From the NCBI GenBank assembly GCA_948144175.1, contig CANXME010002421.1, positions 178,006 through 242,005 of the forward strand: 64,000 bases of DNA, written 5' to 3'. The DNA comes from Closterium sp. NIES-65. Lineage: Eukaryota; Streptophyta; Zygnematophyceae; Desmidiales; Closteriaceae. The notes beneath the pieces were generated by a model. That model saw only the letters and a program-made list of their open reading frames with translations, was not told where the DNA came from and made no database searches. Positions 13,871 to 64,000 of the stretch are shown piece by piece (within the stretch, counting starts at the first letter, position 1; each line of letters opens with the position of its first letter). The position numbers were made by a program, and so were the translations under genes.

Positions 13871-13878
13871 CAGGCTCC

Positions 13879-18918: not shown

Positions 18919-19213
18919 ATGGCGAGTCTTTGGGGTTCGCGACGCACGTCTAGACAGCTCACGCGCGAATCGAAACGCGAGAAAAGCAAAAGGCCCGAAG
19001 AGCCGAATGAATTAGACTTAACTCGCCTGCAGTCCACTAACTCTAGGACTCGCAAGAAGGCGGAGCTTATCAAGAAAGCCAGCGACTCGCGACGCCGGTT
19101 CCACTTTAGAGAGCTCTTGTGTATCGCGATTCCACCAAACGCGACGCTAGAAGACGGTCATCTGCCATGGCCGCTTTGTTCCCCACCCACCACACCCGAC
19201 GCATCAGGCAGAG
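18919..19213 (+). CDS. Candidate first exon of the giant NAP/SET-like gene
   Basis: ATG at 18919 has a strong plant-type context (CGACAATGGCG). The frame gives a basic, mixed-composition N-terminus: MASLWGSRRTSRQLTRESKR, then NELDLTRLQSTNSRTRKKAEL and HFRELLCIAIPP. A donor GCAGAG|GTCAGT at 19213 leaves phase 1, which matches the phase needed by the acceptor at 19838 (giving ASGRG-LTWFPN). The Arg/Lys-rich start could be a nuclear localisation signal. I recognise no family. The link to the downstream exons rests on phase and proximity only. Confidence 0.4.
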
Positions 19214-19429
19214 GTCAGTTCCAAACGCAATTGTCAGATGTCAGTACCGTTACCGTTACAGTTGTTCATTAGACGAGGTTGTGAATTTGACGACTACCGC
19301 TCTCCACTACTTGAAGAGCCCCTATTTTCCAGAGAAACCATCAGAACGCCATCAGTGGAACCAGCAACCGCCCTGATCGCTAATAGATCTCTGAAGATAC
19401 ACTCGCTCTTCCAAGAACTCGATACGTTC

Positions 19430-19590
19430 ATAGAATTCTCTTTTAGTATTCGCACCCCGCGGATTTGCGATCCTGTACAGACCCGTATGCCATTCTGGCT
19501 ATTAGCTGCGACTTTTGAGGCGCCTCAGAAGTCATTTGCACCCTGCGGATTTGGGATCCCTTACAGACCCATATGCTAATCTGGCGATTA
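19430..19590. repeat. Imperfect direct repeat in putative intron 1
   Basis: GCACCCCGCGGATTTGCGATCC...CAGACCCGTATGCCATTCTGG and GCACCCTGCGGATTTGGGATCC...CAGACCCATATGCTAATCTGG are two copies about 85 bp apart. No coding sense seen. The rest of 19214-19838 is pyrimidine-rich toward the acceptor. Confidence 0.7.
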
Positions 19591-19838
19591 AGACCTTGCT
19601 CTTGTGATTCCCTCTCTGACTAGGTTTCTGCCTAGTCTCTGAGCGCCGCTACCTTTCACCTCACCAGGTCATCTCGCTCTTCCTGTCCCGCGTCTGACCG
19701 TTGATGCGCTCCAACATTTGCACTTGACGCCAGATTTTCCGTCTATGCCTCCCTTCCCCTCCCCGCTGCCTTCCTTCCCCACTCCCGGTACCTCCTCCCC
19801 CGCTCCCTCTTTGCCCCCCTCCCCGCACCCCCTCACAG

Positions 19839-19924
19839 GGCTGACGTGGTTCCCGAACGCCAGTGCGGACGACGATTGGCTGGAAGAGGCTGCTACGGCC
19901 TCACACGCCTTGCCGCCGGCTCAG
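19839..19924 (+). CDS. Candidate second exon of the giant gene
   Basis: Acceptor CCCCCTCACAG and donor GCTCAG|GTGCGG bound 86 bp that encode LTWFPNASADDDWLEEAATA and SHALPPAQ. The exon ends in phase 0, which fits the in-frame acceptor at 20200 (CGTAAGCAG) of the next exon, giving PPAQ-AASRSAVSGHV. The composition is normal rather than repetitive, which supports real coding. Function unknown. Confidence 0.5.
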
Positions 19925-20200
19925 GTGCGGTGCTGTGGGGTTGGGAGGTGCATATTGAAGTTGTGAAAGGGTGGAACGCGGTGTTAGGTGCACCAAGAGG
20001 GTTTGGCACAGGGATGTTTCGCTGTGAGTAGGGTTCAGGAATGAAATAAATGGGTCTGCTGCCTCTTCACCTCTATAATTCCACTCAACCCCATTCTTCC
20101 ATGCGCAACCCCCCTCTCCCCGCCCTCCTCCCCCTCCTCCCGGCCCTTCTAACCCCCTCCCCGTACCCCCCCCCAAACCCCACGGAATTGTCGTAAGCAG

Positions 20201-23200
20201 GCTGCGAGCAGGAGCGCTGTATCAGGACACGTGCGAGAGGAGGTCGTCAAGATCGAGGAGATCTCCACAGAGATCGTGACCGTCCAGGAGATATCCACCG
20301 AGATCGGACGGCCAGCCAGGTCCCGCCGATCAGGGGCAAGAGCCGCGCGAGAAGCAGGCTCAGGCGAAGCGGAGGAGAAGAAGAAAGGGAAGAAGGGGAA
20401 GAAGGTAGCTAGGTCGAAACGAGAAGCACAGCCGCCGGATGAGGCGACTAGCGCGGATCCTAGGTTGCCTGAACGGGTGCGGCCTGCAGTAAGAGATGTT
20501 GTAGTGCCACAAACAACAGCGGAAGCACAGACGCCCAGTTCTAGCCCTGCTCCTGCTGCCAGTGGTGCTGGTGGTGCCAGTGGTGCTGGTGGTGCCAGTG
20601 GTGCTGGTGGTGCTGGTAGGACTGGGCTTATAGCTGGCTTGGCAGCAGGGGCAGCAGCAGCAGGCGGGGCCGTAGCAGCCGGGGTGGCAGGTTTGGTTGC
20701 AGGGCGAGAAGCCAAGCCAGCAGAAGAAGCAACCAGCGGGGATGCGATGGAGGGGGTGGAAGGTTCAGAAGGGGTGCGAGGTTCGGAAGGGGTGGGGGGG
20801 TCGGAAGGGATGAGGGAAGACTCGAGAACGTCAGTTGCAGCCGTGCTGGCGTCAGGGGACACTGCAAGAGACCTCAGTAGTGTTGGCGACTCAGAGTCTG
20901 CCGTACAAAGTCTGCCTGAACCAACAGCACAAGCAGCACGAACAGCAGGGGCAGCAGAAGCAGCAGAAGCAACAGAGGCAGCAGAAGCAGCAGACACGGG
21001 TGATAGAGGTGAAGCGGCAGAAGCAGGTTCAGCAGGGGAAGCAGGCCCGAGCGGAGCAGCAGTTGCTGCTGCAGCTGGGGCTGGTGCCGGGGCAGCAGTG
21101 GCAGGCGCCGTGGTAGGAGGAGCTCTAGGCGCTGCTCTAGGCTCTCGGGAAATCTCTAGAGACGATCCCAGAGAGCAGTCCGGTGGGGGGTCGAAACGAG
21201 CCACCCCTGGGACTCCGCTAGGTGGGAGCTCGCCTGTGTCTGCAGGGGAAGGGGGGGGCAGGCGGGAGGCGAAGGCGAAGCGGAACAGGGTGGGGGAGGG
21301 GGCGTTTGGATCAGGGGATCAGCAGGAAGGGGTGTTCGGTGGGGAGGTTTCTGGGGGGAGCGGACGGCAGGGGAGCCAGGGGCGCGGAAGCATGGGGAGA
21401 AGCAGCGGCAGTAGTGGCAGTGGCAGAGATAGGGATACGCTCCTGCAGCAGCAGCAGGTGCAGCAGCAGCAGCGGCAGCAGCAGCAGCAGTCATGGTCGA
21501 AGCAGCCCCTACCTGGTCATGGTCCTGGCGGCGCTACTGGTATGCCTCCTATACGCAGCAACAGCGAGCTTCCCCCCCTTCCCTACCGCAGCACCAGCGG
21601 CCTTCCCCCCCAGCCCCTCCGCAGCAGCAGCGGCCTTGCTGCCCTCTCCGCACCAACCAATAGCAATCTCCTGCAGCGCGCCGCCACGGGCAGCGGTGAC
21701 CGTTGGATCTTCCACTCTGGCGCGGATCGGGACCAGCTTGTGGAGTCGGATTCAAGTGATGACTCGGAGACGATGAGTGGGCGGCTGGAGGGCGGGTTGG
21801 GGGACTCGTGGGGGAGAGCGCGAGGGGGAGACGAAGCAGGGTCGTTCAAAGCGGGGAGTCTGGCGAGTCAGGGGTCTAGAGGCGGAGGCATGAGTCCCGT
21901 ATCTGAAATAGGGGAGCAGGGAGCGGGTACCATTTCAGGGAGAGCGAGGGGCGGGTTATGGCATGGGGCTCCTCGCCCTAGCAGCGCGGGCAAGTCTGGG
22001 AGATCACGGCTAGGAAAGAGATCGCCTAGAGGTTCGTCTCTAGGGGCAGGGATGCTGGAGCGAGTAGCAGGTGGGACGGCGGACAGCAGAGGGAGTTTTG
22101 GCACAGGGGCGGAGATTAACAGAGCGAGTAAGAGCATGAGGGGGTTGCCAGTAGAGGGGTTGGCCAGCGCTGGGGCTAGTGGGGCGTGGAGCTCGTCGGA
22201 TGGCGAGGGGAGTGTGGAGAGGAGGGGGGCAGCAGCGGCGGCTCAGCCTGTGGTTGTGGGATTTGTGGGGCCTGCCAGGCCGGGTACGCCTGTTTCGCTG
22301 TCCAGGGTTGGGTCTGGGGCTCCTGTGCTGCGCCCTGCGACTTCGGGGGGTTTGTTGCTGGAGGATGTGGGGAAGTATGATGACTGGGTGGTGTATGAGA
22401 GTGAGGGGGAGGAGGAGGAGGTGCAGAGTAGGCTTGTCCGGGGGAGGGGGAGAGTGGTGGAGAAGAGGGTGGTGCAGGAGGGGGGGGTGGCGGGGGTTGT
22501 GGATAAGAAGGAGGTGAGGGAGGGAGGGCATGCACAGGGAGTAGGAGCAGCAGCAGCAGCAGCAGCGGCAGGGGCAGGGGCAGCGGGGATGACGGTTGGG
22601 AATGTGGGGCGGAGGAATGGGGTAGAGAGGGACGTGTGGAGAGCAGGGGAAGAGGACTCTGATGACTCGGACTCGGAAATCAAACACGAGGCGGGATGGG
22701 GGCCTGCCTCACAACAGCAGCAGCAGCAACAGCAGAGTAACGGATTCATGTTCAACAGCCAAGGGGGAATGCCAGGGGGCGGGTTTCACCCGGGGGAGGT
22801 TCATTCGGGGCAGGGTCAGCCTGGCGCAAGGCATGCACCCCAACCACCCACCAGCCCGCGACCATCATCTCCCCGACCTCTCCCTTTCGCATCTAGGTCT
22901 CGGTCCTCTGCCCCCGCTCCTCCTCACCCCCAGCAGCAGCTCCCCCCTCGCCCTGTCGGCCCTCCTACCGCCTCCTCCTCTCAGCTCGGCCCTTCACAGC
23001 CCCACCCATTCGCGTCAGGAACAGCAGGTAAGCCGCGCATACCCCCCATCCCCCCGGCTTATGGTCACTCCCCTGCTTATGCCGCACCTGCTGCTGCGTC
23101 TGCTGCTGTGCCGGGTTCCGGCCTGCACCCGTTCGCCCCTGGTGGTTACGCGGGAGGGGCGGGAGCTCCTGCAGCAGCAGCAGGGGCTGTGCCTGGGGGC

Positions 23201-26200
23201 CAGCAGGCAGGGGGGCAGCAGGCAGGGGGGCAGCAGTCGTGGGGGGGGTCTGTGGCAGGGTTCTTTGCAGGGGCAAGCGCGTTTGTGTTTGGGGCGAAGC
23301 ATGACGGGCAAGCAGGGAGAGAGGCAGGGAAGGAGGCGCAGCAAGGAAAGGACTTGAATCAGGCAGGTGATGCTGGGGCTGGGTTAAGGGACGGGGAGCA
23401 AGGGGGGTCTGGGGCGGCAGGTACAGCAGCTGCAGCAGGTGTAGCAAGTGTAGCAAGTGTAGCAAGTGGGGGCAGTGGTAGTGGCGGTGCCAGTGGTAGT
23501 GGTAGTGGTAGTGCTATGCGCCCTCCTCGTCCTCCTTCCCTTGCCATTCCTGGAGCAAAGGATAATGCCACTAGCCCTGGTGCTGGCCGCTATTCCACCC
23601 ATACACATGCAGGAGCAAACGGAGAGGTTGCAGAGCCGCCAGCAGCAGCAGCAGCAGCTAGTGCTGCTGGTGCTGCTGCTGCTGCTCCTGGTGTGTTTGT
23701 GCTAGCGGAGGGGCATGAGGCTCTTATGTCTCCCATTGCGTTCGTTACAGTGTCGCCTGCTAAGAGCACAGGGAGAGGCGCAGATGGAGCTGCATTGCCA
23801 GGGGCAGCTGCAGCAGCGGCGGCGGTGCCTGGGAGAGCGGTGGGAGGAGCAGCAGAGATGGGGGTGATGAGTCAGCAGCCTGCACAGGGGTACCGGCCTG
23901 GGGCGGGGCTTGGTGGGTGGAGTAAAGGCTCTGGTGCTAGGGCTGGTGGGTTTGGTATAGGGTGGGGGGAGGGGAGTGAGGAGGAGGAGAGTGAAGAGGC
24001 GGAGAGTGAGGAAGCGACGGAGGAGGGTGAAGAGTATGAGGAGGAGGAAGAGGATGAAGAGGAGGAAGAGGAGGAGATGGAGTATAGTAGTGATGAGGAG
24101 AGTGAGGAGGAAAGTGAGGAAGAGATTGAGGAAGAGAGTGAGGAGGAAATTGAGGAGGAGAGTGAAGAGGAGATCGAGGAGGGGAGCGAGGAGGCAACTG
24201 AGGATGCAAGTGAGGAGGAAGAGGAGGAAGAGGAGGAGGAAGAAGAGAGCGAGGATGAGAGTGTAGGTGCGTGGGTGGGCAGACCGATACTGGCACCGTC
24301 ACAGGGAGGCACTCCCACGGGCTATAGCGGCATGAAAACCCCCGATGCAATCGGAGGCATCGTGTTTATCAACGAGTACGGCGCCGCACCCCCCTCCCCT
24401 TTTCTGGAGGTAAATTCTATGCGTACTGGAGGGGGTACGAGCGGGGCCAGCACGCCGTTGAGTGGGGGAGCTGGCATGGGAATGGGTGGGGCGAGTGGGG
24501 CAATGGGGGGGGGGAGCAAGTCGCCTAGTGGCAGGCCAGGGGAGGATGATGAGCGTGTGTTTGTGGTTTTTAACAAGTCGAGATTCTCACCCACTGCTGC
24601 TGGCGCTGCTGCTGCTGCTGCTGGCGCTGGTGGTGCTGCTGGTGGTGCTGGTGGTGGTGGCTTGTTGGCTGATACTCAAGGATCAGGGACCCTTGTGGTG
24701 AGGATTGAGAGAGGTGCGGAGGAGGAGGGAAGTGAGGAGGACGAGGGGGAGGTTGGCAGTGAGGGGTGGGATGGAGGGGAGAGTGGGGAGGAGGATGGGA
24801 GTGAGGGTCGGAGTGGGATGGAAGGAGAGAGTGAGGAGGCTGAGAGTGAGGAGGGAAGTGGGTTTGATGGAAGTGCTGAGGGAGAGAGTGAGGGGGAGAG
24901 TGAAGGGAGTGAAGGGGAGGAGAGTGGGACAGAAGGGAGTGAGATGAGGGTAGGTAGGGAGGAGGGAGAAGATGGGGAATTTAGTGCGGTGGAGAGTGGT
25001 GCTTCTGGAGGGAGTGAGGGGAGCGAGGAGGAGAGTGAGGAGGGGAGTGAGGAGGGGAGTGAGGAGGGGAGTGAGGAGGAGAGTGAGGAGGGCAGTGAGT
25101 CAAGCCTTAGCCCTGTGGGGAGTTCAGACGAGGGAGAGACTGAGTACGTGGGGAGTGGGGAGAGTGAGACAGAAGAGAGTGAGGAGGAGAGAGGGAGTGA
25201 GGAAGAGAGTGGGAGTGAGGAGGAGAGTGGGAGTGAGGTGGAGAGTGAGAGTGAGGGGACGGAAAGTGGTTCGAGTGAAAGCGAGGGGAGTGAGGAGACA
25301 GGGTCGAGTGATGATGAGGATGGCACAACTTTGGATGGCACATGGGACGGCACATTGGATGGCACAATGGATGGCACTGTGGGCGGCACAATAGACGACA
25401 GAACGCTGGATGGGACAGAGGTTGTGACTCCAGGCGGGAGTGACACTATGGAGCGGACTTTCACCCTGGAAGAGACCGAGACAGCTGTTAGTGAGATGCT
25501 GGGAAGGACGTTGACTAGGGAGGGGAGTGGGACTATTGAGGGGAGTGAGCTTATAGAGGGGACGGATGCAATGGGGCGAAGTATCACGTTTGAGACAGTG
25601 GGGAGGACTGAGACGTTTGAAGGCAGTGGGACTATAGAGAGAAGTGGCACTATGGAGGGGAGTGGTACTATTGGGAGGAGTGACACTATGGAGGGAAGTG
25701 AGGCTATGGGGAGAACCAACACGTTTGAAACCCTCGGGGAGACTAGGACTTACGAAGGCAGTGATACAATGGAGGGGAGTGAGACTATGGAGGGGAGTGA
25801 GACCTTTGAAAGGAGTGGCACTATGGAGGGGAGTGAGACTGCTGGGACGGCAGATAGAACCTTGACTTCGGAGGGAACTGATGTTCCGAGTGATAGTGAA
25901 AGGGGTGGCCGTAGGAGGGCAGACAGTGACAGGGACAGCAGTCAGAGGGATGGTAGCTCGTATGAGGAAGATAGCTTATCCAAGGGGAGTGAGGAGAGTG
26001 AAGAGAGTGAGGAGAGCGAAGGGAGTGATGTGACAGAGAGTGTGGAAGATGGTGATACTATGGAGGATAGTGATAGTATGGAGGGGAGTGAGGCGGTGAG
26101 CAGGAGTGCAGCGAGCAGGAGCAGAGGAGGGTACAGTGATGATGTTGTGCTTATAGAGGTGGTGACTGTAACAGGGTCTCGAACCAGTGGGACCCGGGAA

Positions 26201-28156
26201 GACTTGTCGAGCGTGCGAGGGATGAGTGAGATTGGGAGTGAGATGGGGAGGAGTGAGATGAGTAGGAGGAAGAGAGCGGGGAGTGAGAGTATGGGGAGTG
26301 ATACAGATGGGACAGAGATGGAGGCAAGTGAGTCGGGCATGAGTGGGAGCGAGGAGAGTGGGAGTGAGGGGAGTGGGGATGAGGAGAGTAGGAGTGAGGA
26401 GAGTGGTAGTGGAGGGAGCAGCAGGAGTGGAAGTGATGAGAGTGAGGGGAGTGAGAGTGAGGGTAGTGAGAGTGATGGCGATGAGAGTGCAAGTCACAGC
26501 TCAGCAGTGTCTGGAACATATGACTCCCACTCCCACACCCATTCACAGAGCAGTGAGGGTTCCGAGTCTGAAGGTGGCTCAGAGAAAGGAAGCATCCACT
26601 CTGGTTCCCACACAACCAGCCCTCATACTACACTCACCCAAGCGTCTGCTTCAGAGGTTTCAGGATCGGAATCTGGCGAATCAGAGTCAGAGAAGATGTC
26701 CAGGTCAGGTTCTCACGCGTCCAGGTCAGCATCACATGCTTCCAGGTCAGCATCACATCATTCCAGGTCAGCATCGCACCGTTCCAGGTCAGCATCCGAT
26801 GCTTCAGGAGGAGCGGGAGCGAGCAAAAACGGGACTGCTGCAAGCTGCAGCCCCTCTGAAGCAAGCCGGAGGCCCTCTGCTGCAAGCCAGTCCCCGGGCA
26901 CAGAGTCGCCTCCTAATGAGTCGCTCAGTAAGGGATCAGTGGGAAGCCAGTCTCGGCTGGGAAGCAAGAGTGGGTCTGATGGGAGTGGGTCTCATGCTAG
27001 CAAGTCCCTTGCTAGTACATCCCACTCTAGCAAGTCTCGTGTGAGCAGCTCTCAAGCTAGTAGGTCTCGTACTAGTGGGTCGCAGGGTAGCAGGTCGGTG
27101 AGGAGCAAGTCAGAGGGAAGCGAATCAGAGAAGAGCGATTCGGAATATGAGGGTACGGGTGAGGGGTCTGAGGAGGAGGGTGAGGGATTCAGCAAGAAGG
27201 GCAGTGAGAGGTACAGCGATATTGATAGTGGGAGTGAAGGGAGCAAAGAGAGCGAGAGTGTGAGGAGTGCGAATAATGCTGCTGTTGGTGCTGCTAATGT
27301 TACTGCAAGTGGTGCTGCTAGCCCCAGCCATCAGCTTGGGACGCCAACAGGTGGCGCTGCGTCATTGGCGGATGCGATGCGGTCGCCTGGATGGAAGAGA
27401 CCCCTCACTGTGAAGGTGGGGGGTAGCTCCCAAGAGCCTAGTTCAGAGGAAGAGGAGGTGGAGGAGGAGGAGGAGGAGGAAGAGGATGATGATGAGGAGG
27501 AAGGCAGTGAGGGTGTTACTGCAACTGAGGAGGAGGAGGAGGAGGAGGAGGGAAGCTCAATTGAGGATGAGGATGAAGAGGAGGAGGAGGAGGAGCAGGA
27601 GGAGAGTGTGTTTACAGACAATAGGAGCTCAGAGGGACAAGGGAGTTTAGAGAGCGACAGGAGGTCAGAAAGTGAGAGGGGATCAGAAGGGGAAGAAGAC
27701 GAAGAGGAGGAGCAGGAGGAGAGTGTGTTTACAGACGACAGGAGCTCAGAAGCAGGGCAAAGCACAGAAAGTGACAGGCGTTCAGAAGGGGATAGGTCAG
27801 AGGGTGACAGGTCAGAGGAGGATGGGATGTCAGAGGGAGAGGATGATACCGAGGAAGAAGGAGGGGAGAGTTTTGGGAGCGAGGAGGAGGAGAGGGCGGC
27901 AAAGATGCTTCGAGCAGAGAGCAAGAGGCGGTTTGATGCAGTGCTCGGGCAGCTGAAGGGGCAGCTGAAGGTTCTGTCGCAGCAGGATTCACAGGGGAGC
28001 GGGCAGTCTGAAGGCAGTGAGGGGAGTGGGGAGGGGAGTGAGGAGGGGAGTGAGGAGGGGAGTGAGGGATTTTGGGGGTCTGATAGGAGTGGAGTGGGTG
28101 TGGGAGATGGGAGGAGAGAGGAGGAGGAGAGGGGAAGAGTCGCAAGAGGAGGATGA
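20201..28156 (+). CDS. Giant acidic Ser/Glu/Gly-rich exon, first part of giant protein
   Basis: About 2,650 codons without a stop. It starts with a mixed segment (EEVVKIEEISTEIVTVQEIS), then has two Ala/Gly hydrophobic stretches (20625-20715, 21055-21147) that could be membrane-associated or merely low complexity. Next come Gln-rich, Pro-rich and long Glu/Ser tracts (24000-24260, 25000-25300, 27440-27900). An RS-like block (HASRSASHASRSASHHSRSA) is at 26710-26810. Short conserved islands are a KYDDWVVYESEGEE segment near 22370, ERVFVVFNKSRF at 24550 and a SKRRFDAVLGQLKGQLK helix at 27920-27970; the last two have relatives in the 23-kb exon. The frame stops at TGA 28154-28156, but the adjacent frame continues the same style without a break, so a one-base shift near 28100-28145 is likely. 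The window gives no enzymatic domain. Probably nuclear, by link to the NAP fold downstream. Confidence 0.7.
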   Translation, partial: AASRSAVSGHVREEVVKIEEISTEIVTVQEISTEIGRPARSRRSGARAAREAGSGEAEEKKKGKKGKKVARSKREAQPPDEATSADPRLPERVRPAVRDVVVPQTTAEAQTPSSSPAPAASGAGGASGAGGASGAGGAGRTGLIAGLAAGAAAAGGAVAAGVAGLVAGREAKPAEEATSGDAMEGVEGSEGVRGSEGVGGSEGMREDSRTSVAAVLASGDTARDLSSVGDSESAVQSLPEPTAQAARTAGAAEAAEATEAAEAADTGDRGEAAEAGSAGEAGPSGAAVAAAAGAGAGAAVAGAVVGGALGAALGSREISRDDPREQSGGGSKRATPGTPLGGSSPVSAGEGGGRREAKAKRNRVGEGAFGSGDQQEGVFGGEVSGGSGRQGSQGRGSMGRSSGSSGSGRDRDTLLQQQQVQQQQRQQQQQSWSKQPLPGHGPGGATGMPPIRSNSELPPLPYRSTSGLPPQPLRSSSGLAALSAPTNSNLLQRAATGSGDRWIFHSGADRDQLVESDSSDDSETMSGRLEGGLGDSWGRARGGDEAGSFKAGSLASQGSRGGGMSPVSEIGEQGAGTISGRARGGLWHGAPRPSSAGKSGRSRLGKRSPRGSSLGAGMLERVAGGTADSRGSFGTGAEINRASKSMRGLPVEGLASAGASGAWSSSDGEGSVERRGAAAAAQPVVVGFVGPARPGTPVSLSRVGSGAPVLRPATSGGLLLEDVGKYDDWVVYESEGEEEEVQSRLVRGRGRVVEKRVVQEGGVAGVVDKKEVREGGHAQGVGAAAAAAAAGAGAAGMTVGNVGRRNGVERDVWRAGEEDSDDSDSEIKHEAGWGPASQQQQQQQQSNGFMFNSQGGMPGGGFHPGEVHSGQGQPGARHAPQPPTSPRPSSPRPLPFASRSRSSAPAPPHPQQQLPPRPVGPPTASSSQLGPSQPHPFASGTAGKPRIPPIPPAYGHSPAYAAPAAASAAVPGSGLHPFAPGGYAGGAGAPAAAAGAVPGGQQAGGQQAGGQQSWGGSVAGFFAGASAFVFGAKHDGQAGREAGKEAQQGKDLNQAGDAGAGLRDGEQGGSGAAGTAAAAGVASVASVASGGSGSGGASGSGSGSAMRPPRPPSLAIPGAKDNATSPGAGRYSTHTHAGANGEVAEPPAAAAAASAAGAAAAAPGVFVLAEGHEALMSPIAFVTVSPAKSTGRGADGAALPGAAAAAAAVPGRAVGGAAEMGVMSQQPAQGYRPGAGLGGWSKGSGARAGGFGIGWGEGSEEEESEEAESEEATEEGEEYEEEEEDEEEEEEEMEYSSDEESEEESEEEIEEESEEEIEEESEEEIEEGSEEATEDASEEEEEEEEEEEESEDESVGAWVGRPILAPSQGGTPTGYSGMKTPDAIGGIVFINEYGAAPPSPFLEVNSMRTGGGTSGASTPLSGGAGMGMGGASGAMGGGSKSPSGRPGEDDERVFVVFNKSRFSPTAAGAAAAAAGAGGAAGGAGGGGLLADTQGSGTLVVRIERGAEEEGSEEDEGEVGSEGWDGGESGEEDGSEGRSGMEGESEEAESEEGSGFDGSAEGESEGESEGSEGEESGTEGSEMRVGREEGEDGEFSAVESGASGGSEGSEEESEEGSEEGSEEGSEEESEEGSESSLSPVGSSDEGETEYVGSGESETEESEEERGSEEESGSEEESGSEVESESEGTESGSSESEGSEETGSSDDEDGTTLDGTWDGTLDGTMDGTVGGTIDDRTLDGTEVVTPGGSDTMERTFTLEETETAVSEMLGRTLTREGSGTIEGSELIEGTDAMGRSITFETVGRTETFEGSGTIERSGTMEGSGTIGRSDTMEGSEAMGRTNTFETLGETRTYEGSDTMEGSETMEGSETFERSGTMEGSETAGTADRTLTSEGTDVPSDSERGGRRRADSDRDSSQRDGSSYEEDSLSKGSEESEESEESEGSDVTESVEDGDTMEDSDSMEGSEAVSRSAASRSRGGYSDDVVLIEVVTVTGSRTSGTREDLSSVRGMSEIGSEMGRSEMSRRKRAGSESMGSDTDGTEMEASESGMSGSEESGSEGSGDEESRSEESGSGGSSRSGSDESEGSESEGSESDGDESASHSSAVSGTYDSHSHTHSQSSEGSESEGGSEKGSIHSGSHTTSPHTTLTQASASEVSGSESGESESEKMSRSGSHASRSASHASRSASHHSRSASHRSRSASDASGGAGASKNGTAASCSPSEASRRPSAASQSPGTESPPNESLSKGSVGSQSRLGSKSGSDGSGSHASKSLASTSHSSKSRVSSSQASRSRTSGSQGSRSVRSKSEGSESEKSDSEYEGTGEGSEEEGEGFSKKGSERYSDIDSGSEGSKESESVRSANNAAVGAANVTASGAASPSHQLGTPTGGAASLADAMRSPGWKRPLTVKVGGSSQEPSSEEEEVEEEEEEEEDDDEEEGSEGVTATEEEEEEEEGSSIEDEDEEEEEEEQEESVFTDNRSSEGQGSLESDRRSESERGSEGEEDEEEEQEESVFTDDRSSEAGQSTESDRRSEGDRSEGDRSEEDGMSEGEDDTEEEGGESFGSEEEERAAKMLRAESKRRFDAVLGQLKGQLKVLSQQDSQGSGQSEGSEGSGEGSEEGSEEGSEGFWGSDRSGVGVGDGRREEEERGRVARGG

Positions 28157-31100
28157 GTATGGTTCCAGAAGTGCGAGTGAGAGAGAGAGTGAGAGGGAGA
28201 GTGAGAGCGAAGGAGGAAGGCACGAGGAGGAGGAGGAGGAGTGGGTGGAGGAAGAAGCAAGGGATTCGGTTAGGAGTGGTTCGGAGGAAGCCTGGGTGCA
28301 CGGCAGTGAGGAGGAACAGGATGATTCAGAAGAAGGGGAGGAGGAGGGGGGAGGGGGAAGGGAAGAGGAGGAGGAGGGGGAGGGGCAAAGGGAAGAGGAG
28401 GAGGAGTACGGTTTCTCATCAGAAGATGAAGCTTCTGCTGCTGTGCCCGCTGCTGCAGTAGTTACTGCAGCTGCTGCAGCTTCCCCCATGGCCCCACCTG
28501 CTCTAGTAGCTCGAGCTGCCCCACCTGCCCCACCTGCCCCACCTGCCCTAACTGGCCCAGCACCCCCAGCACCCCCAGCAGCCGCAGCAATCCCAGCACC
28601 CGCAGCAACCCCAGCAGTCCCAGCAGTTCTAGCTTCCCCCACAACCCCAGCTTTTCCAGCAGCTCCCCCGCAGAGGTTCCACCACCCACAGCCGCCCACC
28701 ACGCCCTCTCTTCAGCCGTCTCCACCCTCCCTCGCCTTGCGCCGCTCCTTCAAGCGCCCCCAGCCCCTGCGCCCCTCCTCCTCCGCCTCGCCCCACCCCT
28801 TCGCCCAAGCGACTGGGTCTGCTGCCAGCACTCCACAGAGCACGGGAGGGTCCTCTGGAGGGTCTACCCCCCACAGTGCAATCGCCGTTACCACTAGCGC
28901 GTCTGATATGGCTGGCCCTCGGCCTACAGGTGAGTTTCCCTCTCCCTTTTACCGGCCATCATCCCCTGGTTCTGCTTCTGCTGCGCTTGCTGCTTCTGCA
29001 CCTGGAGCGCCTGTGTCTGCTTCGCCTGTGCTTGCTGCCGCACCTGCACGTGCTTCGCCTGGCCCTGCTGCCTCTGCCGCTCCTCTTCCTCCTGCTGCTG
29101 CTGCCTCCGTTGTTGCCCCTCCTGCTGGCTCGGCTGTTGCCCCTCCTGCTGCTGCCTTGGTTGTTGCCCCTCCTGCTGGCTCGGCTGTTGCCCCTCCTGC
29201 TGGCTCGGCTGTTGCCCCTCCTGCTGCCCCTCCTGCTGCCTCTGCTGCTGCTTTCTTGTCTGCAGGTCCCCAACCAGTGCAAGAAAGCGAGCACTACACT
29301 ACGAGGCTGCTGACCAATCAGGAGCAGCGTCCACCTGGAACAGCAGAAGCAGCAACGTCACAAGCAGCAGCTTCATCAGCAGCAGCTGCTGCAGTGGTGC
29401 CTACTGGCAAGCCATCCATGGCTGTTCCAGCCGCCTCTCCTGCCCTAGCCCCTGCTGTTCCTCCAGCTGCCTCCCCTGCTAGTGCCCAACCTGCACCCCC
29501 TGCCGGCACCTCCGCTGCAACCCTAGCTGCATCTCCAGCAGTGTCCCCAGCCGTCTCTCCCAAGCCTAGTACCAGCTCCTCTCCCTCCCGAGGCGTCTCT
29601 GCGTGGACATCCCTCTTCCGTCCCCTCTGGGGTACCTCGCCTGCCACTGCTGCCACTGCCGCTCCCGCTGATGGCGCTGATGGTGCTGCTGGTGCTTCTG
29701 CCGCTGCTGCAGCTGTTACAGAGCCGGTCGTTCCTTCAGCAGCAGCAGGGCCTGCAGCAGCTGTACCGCTGCCAGTCGCCCCACCTATGGTAGCGCCTGC
29801 ACCAGTAGCACCTGCACCAGTAGCGCCTGCACCAGTAGCACCTGCACCAGTAGCGCCTGCACCAGTAGCACCTGCACCAGTAGCACCTGCACCAGTAGCG
29901 CCTGCACCAGTAGCGCCTGCACCAGTAGCACCTGCACCAGTAGCGCCTGCACCAGTAGCGCCTGCACCAGTAGCGCCTGCACCAGTAGCGCCTGCACCAG
30001 TAGTGCCTGCACCAGTAGTGCCTGCACCAGTAGCACCACCACCACTAGTAGCACCTGCAGCAGCAATACCTGCACCTATAGAGCCTGCACGAGCCCCTGC
30101 AGTAGCAGCAGCTGCTGCTGTTGGAAGGAAGACCGCTCCCCCTGTTGCTCCTGCACCTCCCCTCCCCACACCTTATCACCAGTCTTCTCCTCCTCACTAC
30201 CCACCCCATCCGTCCCAGCATCCTCCCCCTCCTCCCCAGTATTCCCCTTCTCCATCCACCCCAGAGTTCTCTCCCCTTCCCTTGTCTCACCCCCCTGAAC
30301 CCATCCCCTCTATCCTCCACCCAATGGACCCACGTGCACATCCAGTTTCCGTGCCTCCTCACACTACAACCTCTCCACCTGCCCTTACAACAGCCTCTCC
30401 CACCACCTTTGCTACAGCCGCTCCTACCACCACCCATGCTAAAGCCTCTCATCGCCCCCAATTTACTGCTGCTCCCTCTCCTGCAGTCCTCCACCCTCTG
30501 GACCCACGAGCTCAGAAGCCGCTGCCAGCACAGGTGCCTAAAAAGACTCAAGGGCTTCAAGTGACTGAAGGGGACGAAAGGACTGAAGGGGCCCGGGATG
30601 GGGTTTTCCCCGTAGGCGCTCTGGTGCATGGATTGTCGGCTGACTCTGATTCCATGTCGGCTGGATCCAGGCACGATGCCTATGCTGATGCTGACGCTCC
30701 TACTCATGCCGGCGCTGGTGTTGATGCTGGTGCTGTTGCTGATGCCGATGTTGATGCGAGTGGGAAAGGCAAGTATGGTGGTGGTGCAGGGTTGGTCCCT
30801 CCGGCCTTAGTCCCCGGTGGTGCAGGGAGCTCTCAGGGCTCCAGCCGGCCCGAGTCAAGGGAGTCAACAGAGTCAACCAGGGCGAATGAGTCACCTGAGA
30901 AAGCTGTATCAACGGCAGTTGGTGCAGAAAGAGGAGGGATGGAAAGAGGGGTGGAAAGAGGGGTGGAGAGGGGTGTGGAGAGAGGGGAAGGAGTGGTAGC
31001 GACAGAGGCATGGGTGCTTGCAAGCATGCGACAAAGAAAGAGGCTACAAGGAGGCTCGGAACAAGGCTCGGATGGAGGCTTGGAAGAAGGTTTGGAGGGA

Positions 31101-32951: not shown

Positions 32952-33029
32952 GTGAGTGTGTGGTGCTGGGTGGTATGGTATGGTTTTAAGACTTGTAAGG
33001 GTGTCCCAGAGTGATGTAACAAGTGTCAA

Positions 33030-33287: not shown

Positions 33288-33359
33288 ATGACGGAGCAGG
33301 ACATGGGTGCGCTGCAGTTCCTGTGCTCCGTGGACTTCTACAAGTCGCAACACAGCATG
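33288..33359 (+). CDS. NAP/SET-domain exon 2
   Basis: Acceptor TTTGCAG and donor ATG|GTGTGT bound 24 full codons (MTEQDMGALQFLCSVDFYKS...). In NAP1/SET proteins the equivalent stretch is (E/D)EDEEALHYLTRVEV, just after the helix encoded by the previous exon. Phase 0 at both ends fits both neighbours. Confidence 0.75.
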
Positions 33360-33566: not shown

Positions 33567-33620
33567 GATTTCCGCGTGGACTTTCTCTTTGACGCCAATC
33601 CGTTCTTCACCAATGAATAC
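33567..33620 (+). CDS. NAP/SET-domain exon 3 (core beta strands)
   Basis: Acceptor GTCTCCAG and donor TAC|GTATGC bound 18 codons: DFRVDFLFDANPFFTNEY. This is the signature of the family (SET: YRIDFYFDENPYFENK; NAP1: FVLEFHFEPNEYFTNE), the hydrophobic strands that build the histone-binding earmuff. It is the strongest single piece of evidence for the NAP assignment. Confidence 0.85.
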
Positions 33621-33850: not shown

Positions 33851-33915
33851 CTGAGCCGCGTCTTTGCTGTAGCGAGAAACCCCAAGGCTGACCCAATCAT
33901 CATGTCGATTCACTG
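33851..33915 (+). CDS. NAP/SET-domain exon 4
   Basis: Acceptor CGCGTGCAG and donor CACTG|GTACGT. Encodes LSRVFAVARNPKADPIIMSI with a split codon at the end (TG+C). It corresponds to the LSKEFHL/LTKTY strand of SET and NAP1. Confidence 0.75.
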
Positions 33916-34164: not shown

Positions 34165-34357
34165 CACCCCCATAGCATGGCAACCAGGCAGGGACTTAAC
34201 TAAGCGTCGCACGGGGTGGTTCGGCTGGGCTGCTGCCACTCTCACGCAGGGAGGGAAGGGAGGCGGTGCTGGTGCGGGTGGTGGCAGGAGCAGCTTCTTT
34301 ACACTGTTTGCCTCTCGACCTGCCCTCTCTGCTTCTGAAGCCAACGAGGAGGCTGTG
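34165..34357 (+). CDS. NAP/SET-domain exon 5 (PGRDLTKR and SFF motifs)
   Basis: Acceptor CTGCCAG, donor GCTGTG|GTGAGT. Encodes TPIAWQPGRDLTKRRTGWFG, a Gly-rich loop, and SSFFTLFASRPALSASEANE. SET has STEIKWKSGKDLTKR and, later, ESFFTWFTD at the same places, so the order and spacing fit the second half of the NAP fold. The loop that is basic in SET is Gly-rich here. Confidence 0.85.
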
Positions 34358-34855: not shown

Positions 34856-34902
34856 CGCATGAAGATGCTGGAGGAAGCTGCTCTCACCAATGGTCTCCTG
34901 GA
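34856..34902 (+). CDS. NAP/SET-domain exon 6 (mini-exon, functional copy)
   Basis: 47 bp: acceptor CACCCATCAG, RMKMLEEAALTNGLL plus two bases, donor GA|GTGAGT. Phase 2 at the end joins G at 35121 to give LLESSEGPVVSSLLRW. Position corresponds to the helix that follows the SFF motif in NAP/SET folds. Two upstream copies lack donors. Confidence 0.75.
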
Positions 34903-35120: not shown

Positions 35121-58476
<23,356 letters not shown>

Positions 58477-58779
58477 GGGGAGCGGGACGGGCGCGTCTGG
58501 GACAGGAGGTGGAGGTGCTGTGGGGCAAGCGGGGGGAGCAGCAGCAGGAGTGGCTCCTATTGCGCTTCCGGCCATGGCAGGTGCTGCTGGTCGGCAGCAG
58601 CCCGATCCTCACAGTCCGGGCAAGGTGAGCTGCATGTTTCTGCGTACTCTATTCTGACCTCCTCGCTCTTACCACTTGTAGATAGCCTGAAGTCCCAACC
58701 CCCTCATTTTACCAATGTCGTGACAACCTTTCCCCTTTCTTCTCGCTCTTTTCCTCCACCCCTTCCACCCCCTTTGCAG

Positions 58780-58900
58780 CGATCGCGGATGCTGTCGCTG
58801 GTGGCGTCACAGGGCCTGCACGTGCCGGCCAGTGCAGTGACTCGCGAGATCATGGGGCTCACAGGGGGGAGTGCCGGCTGGGGGCGAGCCGCAGTATGGT
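58780..58900 (+). pseudogene. Exon-array copy 1 (RSRMLSLVAS unit)
   Basis: Acceptor CCTTTGCAG, then RSRMLSLVASQGLHVPASAV and TREIMGLTGGSAG. Its tail keeps similarity to the longer copy 7 (GCCGCAGTATGGTATCCTGGGACA against CGGAGCATGGTGGTTCGGGACA) but runs to a stop. Confidence 0.7.
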
Positions 58901-58963
58901 ATCCTGGGACATAATGCTCACTCACCCGTGTTGCTTCCCTTACCCCCCTTTCATTGCTTGCAG

Positions 58964-59060
58964 CGATCGCGTATGCTGTCGCTGGTGGCGTCACAGGGCC
59001 TTCACGTCCTGGCCAGTGCAATGACTCAGGAGATCATGGGGCTCACAGGGGGGAGTGCTG
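58964..59060 (+). pseudogene. Exon-array copy 2
   Basis: Acceptor GCTTGCAG; RSRMLSLVASQGLHVLASAM then TQEIMGLTGGSAG. Phase 0 start; no phase-compatible donor to the next copy. Confidence 0.65.
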
Positions 59061-59136
59061 GTGTTGCGCGTACCTCTTAACCATCCCTTCCATCTCCCAC
59101 TCTTTGTGTCTCTTCTCCCTCCTCCCCCCCTTGCAG

Positions 59137-59236
59137 CGTTCACGGATGCTCTCTCTGGTGGCGTCACAGGGCCTGCATGTGCCGGCCAGTGCAATGACTC
59201 GAGAGATCATGGGACTCACAGGAGGGAGTGCTGGTG
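59137..59236 (+). pseudogene. Exon-array copy 3
   Basis: Acceptor CCCTTGCAG; RSRMLSLVASQGLHVPASAM then TREIMGLTGGSAG. Confidence 0.65.
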
Positions 59237-59301
59237 CTGCTGATACCTGTTAACCATTTCTCCTCTCTCTCACTCTTCGCATCTTCCCTTCGAACTTGCA
59301 G

Positions 59302-59400
59302 CGTTCACGGATGCTCTCTCTGGTGGCGTCACAGGGCCTGCATGTGCCGGCCAGTGCAGTGACTCGAGAGATCATGGGACTCACAGGAGGGAGTGCTGGT
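59302..59400 (+). pseudogene. Exon-array copy 4
   Basis: Acceptor GAACTTGCAG. Together with the upstream intron piece it is part of a 165-bp unit almost identical to copies 3, 5 and 6. Confidence 0.65.
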
Positions 59401-59466
59401 GCTGCTGATACCTGTTAACCATTTCTCCTCTCTCTCACTCTTCGCATCTTCCCTTCGAACTTGCAG

Positions 59467-59565
59467 CGTTCACGGATGCTCTCTCTGGTGGCGTCACAGG
59501 GCCTGCATGTGCCGGCCAGTGCAGTGACTCGAGAGATCATGGGACTCACAGGAGGGAGTGCTGGT
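59467..59565 (+). pseudogene. Exon-array copy 5
   Basis: Nearly identical to copy 4 over the full 165-bp unit, including the intron text ACCATTTCTCCTCTCTCTCAC. Confidence 0.65.
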
Positions 59566-59631
59566 GCTGCTGATACCTGTTTACCATTTCTCCTCTCTCT
59601 CACTCTTCGCATCTTCCCTTCGAACTTGCAG

Positions 59632-59725
59632 CGATCGCGGATGCTCTCTCTGGTGGCGTCACAGGGCCTACACGTCTCGGCCAGTGCAGTGACTCGCGAG
59701 ATCATGGGACTAACAGGGGGGTTGC
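59632..59725 (+). pseudogene. Exon-array copy 6
   Basis: Acceptor GAACTTGCAG; LHVSASAV variant; one G fewer in the AGTGCTG segment (GGGGGGTTGCTGG). Confidence 0.65.
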
Positions 59726-59804
59726 TGGTGTTGCGCGTCCCTCTTAACCATCCCTTCCGTCTCCCACTCTCGGTGTCTCTTGTCCCTCCTCCCCCCCGTC
59801 ACAG

Positions 59805-60041
59805 CGGTCACGCATGCTGTCGCTGGTGGCGTCACAGGGTCTGCATGTGCCGGCCAGTGCAGTGACTCGGGAGATCATGGGGCTCACAGGGGGGAGTGCT
59901 GGGCTGGGGAGTCGGAGCATGGTGGTTCGGGACAGCATGGGGCGTGCGGGAGGAGGTGGTTTTAACCTGGGGCTGAGTCGCAGTATGGTGAAGGAACGAA
60001 AGCAGCCTTCGTTGCTGGATAGTAGTGGTAGCGAGGAGGAA

Positions 60042-60080
<39 letters not shown>

Positions 60081-60950
60081 GAAGAGGAGGAAGAGGAGGT
60101 GGAGGAGGAGGAGGAGGAAGAGGATGATAATGATGAGGAGGGTGAGGGTGGAGCAGAGGAAGGGGAGGGAGAAGAAGAGGAAGAGGAAGAAGAGGAGGGG
60201 GAGGAGGAAGAGTATGGAGAGGCGGCGGAGGAGGAGGAAGCAGGGGGAGAGGGAGGAGACGAGGGAGAGGAGGAGGAGGAGGAGGATGCACAGGAGGAAG
60301 TAGATGGAGTGGATCAAAAAGAGAATGAGGAAAGCGCGGAGGAGGAAGAGAAGGAGGAGAACGAGGAGAATGAGGAGCAGGAGGACTTAGAGCACGAAGA
60401 TATGGAGGTTGGGGGCGAGGCGACTTGGAAGATGGAGGGAGCGGAGGAGGGTCCAGGTGAAGGGGAGTCAGCTGAGGAGGACGATGAGAGCAATGAGGAG
60501 GAAGAGGAGGAGGAGGTAGAGCAGGAGGACCTGGAGGAGAACGCAGCAGGACACACGGATATGGAGGTCAGGGGCGAGGAGTCTTGGGACATGGAGGCTG
60601 AGGAGGGCCCAGGTGAGGAGGAAGAGGAGAATGAGAAGGTAGAGCACGAGACAGAGCACACCGATATGGAGATCAGGGGCGATGAGTCTTGGGACTTGGA
60701 GGAGGCTGAGGATGCTCCCGCTGAGGATGCTCCAACCGAGGACACTCCAGCTGAGGAGAGCCCAGCTGAGGCAGGAGGAGGAGCGGATGAGGAAGCAGGC
60801 AGTGATTCTGCCAAAGACCCCCTGCTGCTGAATGTGTCTGAGGGTGAGGGGCGTGTGAAGGCCCTTGCTGCTGCTATGCTGTCGCCTACTGCTACTGCTG
60901 CTGATACCACCACTGCATCCCCTAAAGAGGCTGGTGGCGTTAGGTGTTGC
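59805..60950 (+). CDS. Acidic exon beginning with array copy 7
   Basis: Acceptor CCGTCACAG, then the same RSRMLSLVASQGLHVPASAV TREIMGLTGGSAG unit, but here the frame stays open: LGSRSMVVRDSMGRAGGGGF, a poly-Glu/Asp region (60030-60300), and three copies of a D(M/L)E..(G/D)E(S/A)(T/S)W(K/D)(M/L)E motif around 60400-60700. Phase 0 at the start matches the donor at 58624. This is therefore the copy most likely used in the mRNA. It ends by running into the VKALAA repeats, with a frame change near 60945. Confidence 0.65.
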
Positions 60951-62210
60951 TGGGGGGCGTGTGAAGGCTCTTGCTGTTGTGGTGGCGTCTGCTGCTGCTG
61001 ATACCACCAGTGCACCCTCTAACAAGGCTGCGACTGTGGACGTTTCTGCTGGAGGGTGAAAGCACTGGCTGCTGTGGTGGCTTCATCTGCATCTGCTGAC
61101 GCCACCAGTGCACCCTCTAAGGAACCGGCGACTCTGAATGTTGCAGAGGGGCGTGTGAAGGCTCTTGCTGCTGTGGTGGCGTCTGCAACTCCTGACACCA
61201 CAGCTGCAGCCCCGAAAGAGGCAGCAACTATAAATGTTCCTGGCGGGCATGTGAAAGCTCTTGCTGCCGTGGTTGCGTCAACTGCTGCTCCTGCTGACGC
61301 CACCAGTGCATCCCCAAAGCGGCGGCGGCTGTAGATATCGCTGGCGGGCATGTGAAAGCTCTGGCTGCTGTGGTGGCGTCTGTGGGTGCTGCTGGTGCCA
61401 CCAGTGCACCCTCTAACGAGTCAGCGGGTCTAGATGTTGCTGGTGGGCGTGTGAAGGCTCTTGCTGCCTTTGCGGCTGCTCCTGCTGCTGATGATACCAC
61501 CAGTGCACCCTCTAAAGAGTCACCGGGTCTAGATATTGCTGGGGGGAGGGTGAAGGCGCTGGCTGCTGCGGTGGCATCCACTGCTGCTGCTGACGCCACC
61601 AGTGCACCCCCTAAAGAGGTGGTGGTGACTGGAGACGTTGCTGAGGGATGGGTGAAGGCTCTGCTCCCTCTGTGGCTGCTCTTGCTGCTGCTGATACCAC
61701 CATTGCACCCCTTGAAGAGGCAGCGGCTCTAGATGTTGCAGAGGGGCGTGTGAAGGCCTCTTGCTGCTGTGGTGGCTTCTGTGGCAGCTGCTGACTCTGT
61801 TCAGTGCAACGCCTAAAGGTGTGGCGAATCCTGATTTTTGCAGAGGGGCGTTGTGAAGGCTCTTGCTGCTCGGGCTGCCTCTGCTGCTGCAAACAACAGT
61901 GCTGAAAGCACCGGCGGTGCTTCAAAGGACTTGGTCTCTCTGGAGGTTGGAGAGGGGCGGGTGAGAGAGCTCGCTGCTATGGCTGCCTCTGCTGCTGCCA
62001 CAGCAGTGCAACCGCCAGTGCTGCTTCAAATGAACCCCTCTTCTGGATGTTGCTGGGGAGGAACTAGTGAGAAAGGCTCGCTGCTCTGGCTGCCTCTGCT
62101 GCTGCCAATAACAGTGCTGAAACTGCTGACAGTGCTCCAAAGGACTCCTCTCTGGACGCTGGTGAGGGCCGTGTGAAGGCCCTGGCTGCTCTTGCTTCCA
62201 CTGGTGCTAC
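60820..62210 (+). repeat. About 14 units of a 99-108 bp repeat (GRVKALAAVVAS...TSAPSKEAA)
   Basis: Each unit contains GGGGCGTGTGAAGGCTCTTGCTGCTGTGGTGGC and GACACCACCAGTGCACCCTCTAAAGAG. The encoded consensus is about 33 residues, roughly GRVKALAAVVASAAADTTSA then PSKEAATLDVAE. The frame changes at least four times (near 60945, 61055, 61335, and between 61735 and 62170), while the unit itself stays recognisable in one frame or another. I read this as a coding repeat that is decaying or contains sequencing indels; the last unit reads into the ORF below. Confidence 0.85.
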
Positions 62211-63480
62211 CTCTGGTAACAATGTTAGTCAAGGCCAATCTAATAGCAATGGTGAACCCACCACGCTGTACGGCAATGACAAGAGCATCCAGCAGCAGCA
62301 GCAGCAGCACTACCCTGCTCCCTCCCCACGCCTCATCCACCGTCCCTACTCCCCGTCACCGCGCTCCATCCCTCACTCCCCATCCGCCCATCTCCCCTGC
62401 TACACTCGCTGCCCCTCCACCCATCTCGTGAGCCCCATTCGCCCCCGAAGAAGCTTCAGCCCTAGTAGGTTCCGGGCATTTGATGCTGCAGCAGTGGCAG
62501 CAGCAGCCTTGTCAGGAGTTTCCCCTCAGCGCCGCCGCTCCCCTTCGCCGAACCTCCCACGTTATTCCGCCTCTCCGGGGGCTTATCCTAGCGGCTTTCC
62601 CATCCGAACCTCGTCTGTGAGCCCGAGCCAGTCACCCATGGCCCGAGGCCTGCCTCCACGGCTGCCGCCGAGGTTCGGCAGCAGCGTGAGGTTTGGTGGG
62701 GGTGCGAGGGACCCGAGGTTTGGCGAGTTCCGTGATTCGTCGAGAGATTCAGATTTCCGCGAGGGGGCGGGGAGGAGAGGTGCTGGCATGGGGGAGGTAG
62801 GGGGAGGTGGAGCAGGAGGGGTTGGGGGTTTGGGGAGTGGGGGAGGGAGTGGGGGATACAGCAAATCTCGGTCGTTGGATCGACAGATAATGGTGGGATC
62901 ACCAGGAGGGATGGTGGGAGGCGCGGGGGATGTGCTTATAACGAAGGGCAGTGGCGGCGGCATGGAGGGAGAAGGGCATGAGGGGGAAATGCTGGGGGAT
63001 GATGCAGAAAACGAGGAGGAGAGAGAGGAGGAAGATGAAGGGGAGGATGAGGACGATGAGGAGGAGGGAGAGGAGGAGCGAGAGGAGAAGGGTCCACCTA
63101 GTGAGGGTATGCAGACACAAGGGCCAGCAGCTGCAACAGTGCCTTCAAGCGAGGCCAACGGGATTGCTGGCAGTGGCAAGACATGGAAAGACATTCTTCT
63201 CTCTGTGAAAGCAGCGTCTCAGCCCGGAAGAGCTGTTCCCGGTTCTAATGCAGGGAGACAAGAGGGTGTGGGTGTTTCTGCCCTGGCAGCTGTAGCGGCA
63301 GAGGTTGTAACGGGAATGGACGGAGGCAGGGAGGGAGGGGTGGGTGATGTGGCTGGGGTGTTGGGGAATGGAGCATTGGTGTTTGGTGCAGTTGATGTGG
63401 CGGGGGACAGCAGGGAAGTCGGTGGGGGCGATTGGAGAAATGCATGGGGAGGCGTGCCGGCAGGAGGGATGGAAGAGGGC
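62173..63480 (+). CDS. RS/proline-rich and acidic exon near the 3' end of the window
   Basis: Continues from the last VKALAA unit: a Gln run, a Pro/Ser/Arg region (PAPSPRLIHRPYSPSPRSIP, RPRRSFSPSRFRAFD, SPQRRRSPSPNLPRY) resembling RS domains, a Gly-rich segment, KSRSLDRQIMVGSPGGMV, an acidic block at 63010-63090, and SGKTWKDILLSVKAAS. No enzyme motif is seen. Near 63420-63480 the coding style moves to the next frame. Probably part of the giant gene; function unknown. Confidence 0.55.
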
Positions 63481-63836
63481 GAGAAGCGTTGCAACTGGAG
63501 TAATGGCGACTGGTGGGGTGATGGCAGGTGGGCAGCAGCATTCGATTTACAGAGGGATAGCAGAGGGAGAAGAGGAGGGAGGGATGGAGAACGAAAAGGA
63601 CGGACCAGCTGTGGTAGAAGGGGAAGTTGTTGGGGGGGTTGGAGCAGAAAAAGAGGCAGCAGAGGGAGATTTTGCAGCTGCAAACAGCAACACGGGTGCA
63701 GAGGGGAGAGGGAGGGTGGAGGAGTGGGGGGGGCAGAGCCCCATGAGGGAGCTTCTGGGGGCGTTGGAGTCTCCCACCAGATGGGCTCACTTGTGTGCCA
63801 AGATGGAGCAGCAGAGGCAGCTGTATGAAGCCCAAG
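63422..63836 (+). CDS. Following segment in shifted frame, with donor at its end
   Basis: In the second plus frame the text reads VGAIGEMHGEACRQEGWKRA, then ARSVATGVMATGGVMAGG, EEGGMENEKDGPAVVEGEVV and finally SPMRELLGALESPTRWAHLC AKMEQQRQLYEAQ, ending at donor CCAAG|GTGAGC in phase 1. This is more protein-like than the overlapping first frame, which ends in Arg/Gly/Cys-rich sequence. The last 28 codons are repeated downstream. Confidence 0.5.
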
Positions 63837-63910
63837 GTGAGCCTTATGTGTGCCTTATGAATCTCAAGGTGAGCCTTATGTGGGAGAGGATAGTGTGTAA
63901 CAGTGTCAAG

Positions 63911-63995
63911 CTGCTGGGTGCGTTGGAGTCTCCTACCAGATGGCCTCACCTGTGTGCCAAGATGGAGCAGCAGAGGCAGCTGTATGAAGCCCAAG
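63911..63995 (+). CDS. Duplicate of the preceding exon end (LLGALESPTRW...YEAQ)
   Basis: 85 bp starting CTGCTGGGTGCGTTGGAG copies 63752-63836, with the donor CCAAG|GTATG kept. The upstream AG (GTGTCAAG) could serve as acceptor. Splicing copy 1 to copy 2 would shift the frame, so the two would have to be alternatives, or one is dead. The gene runs on past the window. Confidence 0.5.
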
Positions 63996-64000
63996 GTATG

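Follow-up and report, generated by a model that had tools for sequence, protein, structure and literature searches.

A predicted giant gene of Closterium sp. NIES-65 with a NAP/SET-type core between long, mostly acidic arms

We analysed a stretch of 64,000 nucleotides from the zygnematophycean Closterium sp. NIES-65 (GenBank assembly GCA_948144175.1, contig CANXME010002421.1, positions 178,006 to 242,005 of the forward strand; hereafter the window), in which a giant gene is predicted on the plus strand. From 18.9 kb onwards, this strand carries three long open frames at 20153-28156, 27969-33014 and 35080-58476 (2,667, 1,681 and 7,798 codons, respectively), and short exons between the second and the third encode a core of the NAP/SET type. 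The core is assembled from seven pieces (the end of the exon closing at 32951; 33288-33359; 33567-33620; 33851-33915; 34165-34357; 34856-34902; and 35121 onward) that join in phase via six GT-AG introns, the splicing being predicted from the sequence. An earlier reading of the letters alone, to which we refer as the original prediction, had placed the NAP motifs in the right order across phase-consistent exons, and the joined exons do spell the motifs that it quoted.

The core belongs to the NAP family by the curated cut-off of Pfam. It matched the NAP profile PF00956 with an E-value of 3.3e-19 and 69.6 bits (gathering cut-off 28.6) over profile positions 87-225 of 266, and the core sequence alone scored 73.8 bits; the original prediction had staked itself in advance on such a match. 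Among sequences of the Protein Data Bank (PDB), the best match was human SET (7mto, 4.4e-12), followed by NAP1 (1.7e-9) and AtNRP2 (4.1e-8), and the core aligned to residues 81-171 of the SET chain 2e50. By score it is closer to SET than to NAP1 (49.4 vs 40.9 bits). The landmarks of the earmuff fold, NPFF.N, W..G.DLTK and SFF..F, are present in order, with the profile match reaching SSFFTLF and the PDB matches ending earlier. SET/TAF-I beta and the plant proteins NRP1 and NRP2 have the same earmuff order (W......H...S.L, NP(F/Y)F.N, T.I.W..G.DLTKR) followed by an acidic tail, and in SET, SFFT.F stands after DLTKR. An acidic C-terminal tail, probably disordered to judge by its composition, likewise follows the core directly in the same exon here. 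SET and the plant NRPs are the closest known proteins by fold.

The dimerisation helix, which the original prediction had not seen either, could not be located. Profile positions 1-86 of PF00956, which correspond to this helix, were unmatched. Neither the N arm nor the first exons gave a NAP match (Pfam, E<=1), and a scan of most plus-strand frames of 17300-20260 (E<=10) yielded none either. The most helix-like stretch near the N terminus, SRRRFHFRELLCIAIPP, which by eye resembles the end of the SET helix, was rejected as a hidden dimerisation helix because it gave 76.0 bits when joined to the core, compared with 73.0-74.3 bits for five shuffles and 73.8 bits for the core by itself. With either of two further pieces of helical appearance, the joined score was 73.7 bits. 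We treat the helix as absent. SET and NRP proteins form homodimers via the long helix, and NAP1/NAP1L, with which the gene described here shares the PF00956 core, also possesses one; this gene has no helix that we could find and would encode a product of over 9,500 residues. Since the helix is missing, we do not expect the product to dimerise in the usual way. An excerpt of PMC6630525 calls long antiparallel helices characteristic of all NAP family proteins. Because this defining helix was searched for and not found, we do not call the product an ordinary NAP protein; on the predicted exon structure, it is a NAP-fold core in a giant protein.

Two tests bear on whether the long frames are coding. 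The longest stop-free runs were compared with those of 200 block-Markov shuffles that preserve local composition: 7,784 codons downstream of the core vs a shuffle maximum of 459, and 2,651 codons upstream vs a maximum of 461. The stronger test makes no use of the protein sequence: the DNA of each piece was compared with itself without gaps, and the spacing of repeat copies was taken modulo three. The spacing was a multiple of three in 712 of 717 pairs for 35122-58430, in 41 of 41 for 20201-28090, in 20 of 20 for 28150-32951 and in 34 of 34 for the acidic exon at 59806-60860; the control region 1-18900 gave 35 of 146 and the intron 58625-59805, which holds exon copies, 6 of 12. As the repeat pairs overlap one another, the counts lack statistical independence. 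Because repeats within the long frames nearly always lie a multiple of three apart, the frames are coding and did not arise by chance.

Differences between repeats point in the same direction. In the downstream piece, they numbered 3366, 4078 and 5159 at codon positions 1, 2 and 3, the third being the highest; the two N arm pieces gave 37, 121 and 176, and 70, 76 and 92. The two motifs of a repeated module in the C arm showed mostly silent change, with proportions of synonymous differences (pS) of 0.196 and 0.152 vs proportions of nonsynonymous differences (pN) of 0.008 and 0.013, the copies having been picked by protein pattern, which lowers pN. Gapped self-alignments began in frame in 228 of 268 cases for the C arm and in 32 of 36 and 8 of 9 for the N arm pieces. 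Taken from these comparisons, protein-level constraint acts on the arms.

The arms are long and mostly acidic. Exons 1-3 (2,769 residues, to 28126) have a net charge of -289 and the second part of the N arm (1,607 residues) one of -157, which gives -446 for the N arm; the C arm (7,753 residues, 25% D/E) reaches -1293. The huge acidic arms of the original prediction are thus borne out in net charge and not in uniformity, as 12 of 62 blocks of 200 residues have a net charge of zero or above (4/14, 3/9 and 5/39 by arm piece) and Pro/Ser-rich neutral blocks occur. From their composition, the arms are probably disordered. Short motifs recur in them, namely one 16-residue motif (five times), RL(R/Q)SDFLNRFQ (five times), TPMPG (14 times) and ERV(F/V)VVF (six times, the sixth being ERVFVVFNK at 24551 in the N arm), and (R/K)RF(D/N)AVLG.L is found once per arm. 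Near the N terminus lies KKKGKKGKK, a basic patch resembling a nuclear localisation signal, which fits a nuclear protein. No Pfam family was found above cut-off in the arms or first exons, and the first exons and two downstream exons matched PDB sequences only at E above 1 or not at all.

How long the product would be depends on two frame changes. Downstream of the core, the exon stays open over 23.3 kb, as originally predicted. The upstream 12.7 kb, taken to be a single frame, proved to consist of two that no convincing intron connects: frame 2, which extends from 20201 to about 28.13 kb, and frame 0, a 4.8-kb open frame from there to 32951, the end of which is the first exon of the core. We scored 853 GT-AG pairs (50-700 bases) as hidden introns at 28.13 kb and found none convincing, so that such an intron is unlikely. 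The best acceptors (pyrimidine fraction 0.75) pair with poor donors (5/9), and the best candidate with a fair donor, 27811-27994 (donor 7/9; acceptor pyrimidine 0.55, the ten acceptors of the gene model ranging from 0.5 to 0.9), would delete the RRFDAVLG motif common to both arms. The change is due to a mistake in the assembly, a genuine frameshift or an intron of unusual type. The second change, near 58.45 kb, falls within a G run. If no frame change is accepted, a product of 9,543 residues can be read that begins with the ATG at 28107 and is closed by the stop at 58476. Allowing one frame change and the two small first exons, it would comprise 4,376 + 7,918 = 12,294 residues to 58,444, and the change at 58.45 kb together with the acidic exon from 59805 would add roughly 430 more. 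A giant in-frame fusion is thus upheld, and the predicted single product of more than 12,500 residues requires both unexplained frame changes. An open run to 64000, as also proposed, is not supported because beyond the 58.45-kb change the frame is broken many times between 60.94 and 62.1 kb.

In the reading that we prefer, with a probability of roughly 0.55, a NAP/SET earmuff core and giant, mostly acidic arms would form one nuclear protein of about 9,500-12,700 residues that would hold H3-H4 via a non-dimerising core; histone binding, nuclear localisation and a single transcript are what we infer here. The core would bind histone H3 as a monomer, since SET 76-185, which lacks the dimerisation helix and the acidic tail, suffices in vitro and the core spans nearly the same stretch. 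According to PMC2676315, this SET fragment folds well and needs neither of the two parts to bind H3 in vitro, and dimerisation is not essential. Short and disordered in other NAPs, the acidic tail would here have been enlarged into an arm that contacts histones with low affinity and, by means of its repeated short motifs, tethers many partners. Handling of H2A-H2B via the helix, as in AtNRP1, may have been lost or shifted to the arm; according to passages of PMC9128123, AtNRP1 binds H2A-H2B with the helix, and the acidic C-terminal domains contribute to histone binding although they are not conserved. The protein would then be a histone reservoir or chromatin scaffold and not a small shuttle, and a role as chromatin sponge or scaffold is possible. 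We regard a stronger version as less probable: a chromatin giant, one protein some 12,000 residues long, whose sole recognisable fold would be a monomeric histone-binding core of the SET type, while arms of about -1,740 net charge would serve as a histone-buffering or chromosome-organising polymer.

Several results weigh against this reading. Acidic surroundings show no enrichment of tryptophan (z -0.5). Sites of the CK2 type number 453, which does not exceed the mean of 469 for whole-sequence shuffles but lies above that of 414 (range 367-464) for local shuffles. Because there is neither tryptophan enrichment nor an excess of CK2 sites over the whole-sequence shuffle, the arms show no sign of a dense array of histone motifs of the known, acid-plus-aromatic type. 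Some Ala/Gly/Val-rich stretches attain membrane-like hydropathy. Gap lengths in the gapped self-alignments do not discriminate and lend the coding frame no support (multiples of three in 206 of 1,116 for the C arm and in 60 of 174 and 17 of 28 for the N arm pieces). A decaying gene or a faulty assembly would show features such as the changes of frame at about 28.13 and 58.45 kb and the breaks at 60.9-62.1 kb. Finally, protein searches returned no relative among 593, 745 and 3,055 candidates, yet they did not return even an ordinary NAP and for that reason say little about rarity.

An unlikely alternative is that the locus holds two or more genes, in which case a NAP-core protein of normal size would start internally (e.g. 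at the ATG of MARTPDARPV...), its transcript would end early, and the giant genes for disordered proteins on either side would be unrelated to it. In-frame ATGs are present upstream of the core, and a core without the helix is what a truncated product would show. Both end pieces of the core, however, lie within the giant open frames, the downstream frame has no stop before 58,476, and ERV(F/V)VVF and (R/K)RF(D/N)AVLG.L are common to both arms, which suggests one protein.

The same degree of doubt applies to a giant disordered scaffold whose NAP-like core was co-opted for a role outside chromatin, such as phosphatase inhibition, cytoskeleton or membrane tethering. SET, also named I2PP2A, has non-histone partners, and the membrane-like Ala/Val stretches and Pro/Ser-rich blocks would suit such a role, but the N terminus is basic and has no hydrophobic leader, and the acidic tail adjoins the core as in chromatin NAPs.

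It is quite improbable that we are looking at a former giant gene that was once coding and is now losing its frame. Such decay would account for the two frame changes, for the decayed exon copies inside introns and for the clustering of breaks: a script marked 12 frame switches in 59806-63830, nine of them within 60.94-62.08 kb. The script also marked four switches in each of 20201-32951 and 35121-58624, most of them where the frame is open anyway, so its tally is no more than indicative. Against decay, about 36 kb of exon (20201-32951 and 35121-58444) are stop-free apart from one frame change, both frame changes fall in runs of purines or of G, a context in which the consensus of long reads is often wrong, and the exon beyond the 58.45-kb change is still in phase. 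A chance open frame is ruled out by the shuffles and the repeat phase.

By layout, the closest protein is human TSPYL2, with which the gene described here shares a proline-rich N part, a NAP domain and an acidic C part, although the likeness consists in the order of parts only and its arms measure hundreds of residues, whereas those of the gene described here measure thousands. An excerpt of PMC13023821 describes TSPYL2 (CDA1/TSPX) as a protein of 693 residues with a proline-rich N part, a NAP domain in the middle, an acidic C part and nuclear signals, and passages of PMC9128123 describe disordered ends and an acidic C-terminal domain for NAP1. In one table of PMC4357127, Arabidopsis NAP proteins range from 29.4 to 43.5 kDa, with NRP1/2 at 29.4 kDa and AtNAP1;3 and AtNAP1;4 at 43.2 and 36.4 kDa. 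Scans of viral_contigs yielded no relative. Among the matches listed from one open-access literature library, there was no description of such a gene and nothing usable on precedents for giant proteins or long exons; a precedent for tandem exon duplication was not found in that library either. Giant disordered acidic proteins and phosphoproteins with low-complexity, S/E-rich repeats include Nopp140, treacle and AHNAK, the last with a very long exon; to our knowledge, none of them has a NAP core.

Table 1. Predicted exons, core pieces and repeat features of the giant gene (positions in the window)
Feature	Position	Strand	Remark
Predicted first coding exon (MASLWGSRR...)	18919..19213	+	ATG and GTCAGT donor; predicted only
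Predicted second exon (GLTWFPNASADDDWLEE...)	19839..19924	+	GT-AG; phase matches neighbouring exons
N arm, first part, low-complexity, G/S/E/A-rich	20201..28130	+	Repeat phase 41/41
N arm, second part, 1,607 aa; ends in the first NAP residues TWLEVLQSHAVLSEL	28131..32951	+	Repeat phase 20/20
NAP core exon MTEQDMGALQFLCSVDFYKSQHSM	33288..33359	+	Phase-joined; PF00956 and PDB-sequence matches
NAP core exon DFRVDFLFDANPFFTNEY	33567..33620	+	Phase-joined; PF00956 and PDB-sequence matches
NAP core exon LSRVFAVARNPKADPIIMSIH	33851..33915	+	Phase-joined; PF00956 and PDB-sequence matches
NAP core exon TPIAWQPGRDLTKRR...SSFFTLF...	34165..34357	+	PF00956; PDB matches stop at the DLTKR part
Exon RMKMLEEAALTNGLLE	34856..34902	+	Outside the Pfam match; two extra copies in preceding intron
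Likely core end (by eye, outside the Pfam match), then C arm, 7,753 aa	35121..58444	+	Repeat phase 712/717
Five ERVVVVF(K/N) motifs	40819..41565	+	Motif scan
Five copies of one two-part module, differences mostly synonymous	48976..56700	+	Motif comparison
Other-frame continuation past the G run, ending at a GTGAGC donor	58451..58624	+	Predicted only
Six tandem copies of exon-like unit RSRMLSLVASQGLHV.ASA.T.EIMGLTGG	58780..59804	+	Seventh copy = start of next exon
Further acidic exon, first stop in its frame at ~61.0 kb	59805..60942	+	34/34 repeat pairs in frame
RVKALAA repeats in broken frame	60943..62200	+	4/30 repeat pairs in frame (60860-62200)

At the upstream end of the gene model (Table 1), an in-frame stop sits five codons before the ATG of the first predicted exon. 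Three of the nine introns examined (32952-33287, 34358-34855 and 58625-59804) hold clear tandem copies of neighbouring exon edges: 33036-33094 is 88% identical to 32893-32951, intron 34358-34855 holds two copies of exon 34856-34902, and intron 58625-59804 holds six copies of the exon starting at 59805. A marginal exon-edge copy is present in intron 33916-34164 (24.3 bits vs a shuffle maximum of 22.3). All seven tandem copies at 58780-59900 read RSRMLSLVASQGLHV.ASA.T.EIMGLTGG despite differing DNA and are possibly alternative or repeated exons. Such copies suggest that tandem duplications spanning splice sites make the gene grow. The RVKALAA repeats at 60943-62200 adjoin a phase-intact exon and are legible as protein in all three frames; an assembly error or decay is possible in this zone. 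At 63700-64000, an exon-like stretch MRELLGALESPTRWAHLCAKMEQQRQLYEAQG precedes another copy of its own LLGALESPTRW... part, and the locus may run on beyond the end of the window.

Upstream of the gene, the minus strand at 12182-17961 carries a Copia-type retroelement, whose RVT_2, integrase and gag domains are encoded by two frames that overlap, and a 117-bp direct repeat (12182-12298 and 17845-17961, 95.7%) may represent its long terminal repeats. Three dense tandem arrays with periods of 15, 25 and 43 lie side by side at 10395-11738. A xyloglucan fucosyltransferase domain (PF03254, 3.4e-34) at 2858-4867 is the only lineage marker found in the window, and we take it to indicate a streptophyte, i.e. 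a plant or a close algal relative.

The smallest of the NAP proteins with which we compared the gene has about 29 kDa and the largest 693 residues; where structures exist, they show dimers locked by the helix. A helix-less core in a protein that exceeds these more than tenfold in length would demonstrate that a giant scaffold can incorporate the chaperone fold, and it would permit a test of whether the acidic tail of NAP proteins acts by charge and length alone. The open exon of 23.3 kb is itself unusual, and its repeats show cleanly how low-complexity sequence can be constrained at the protein level.

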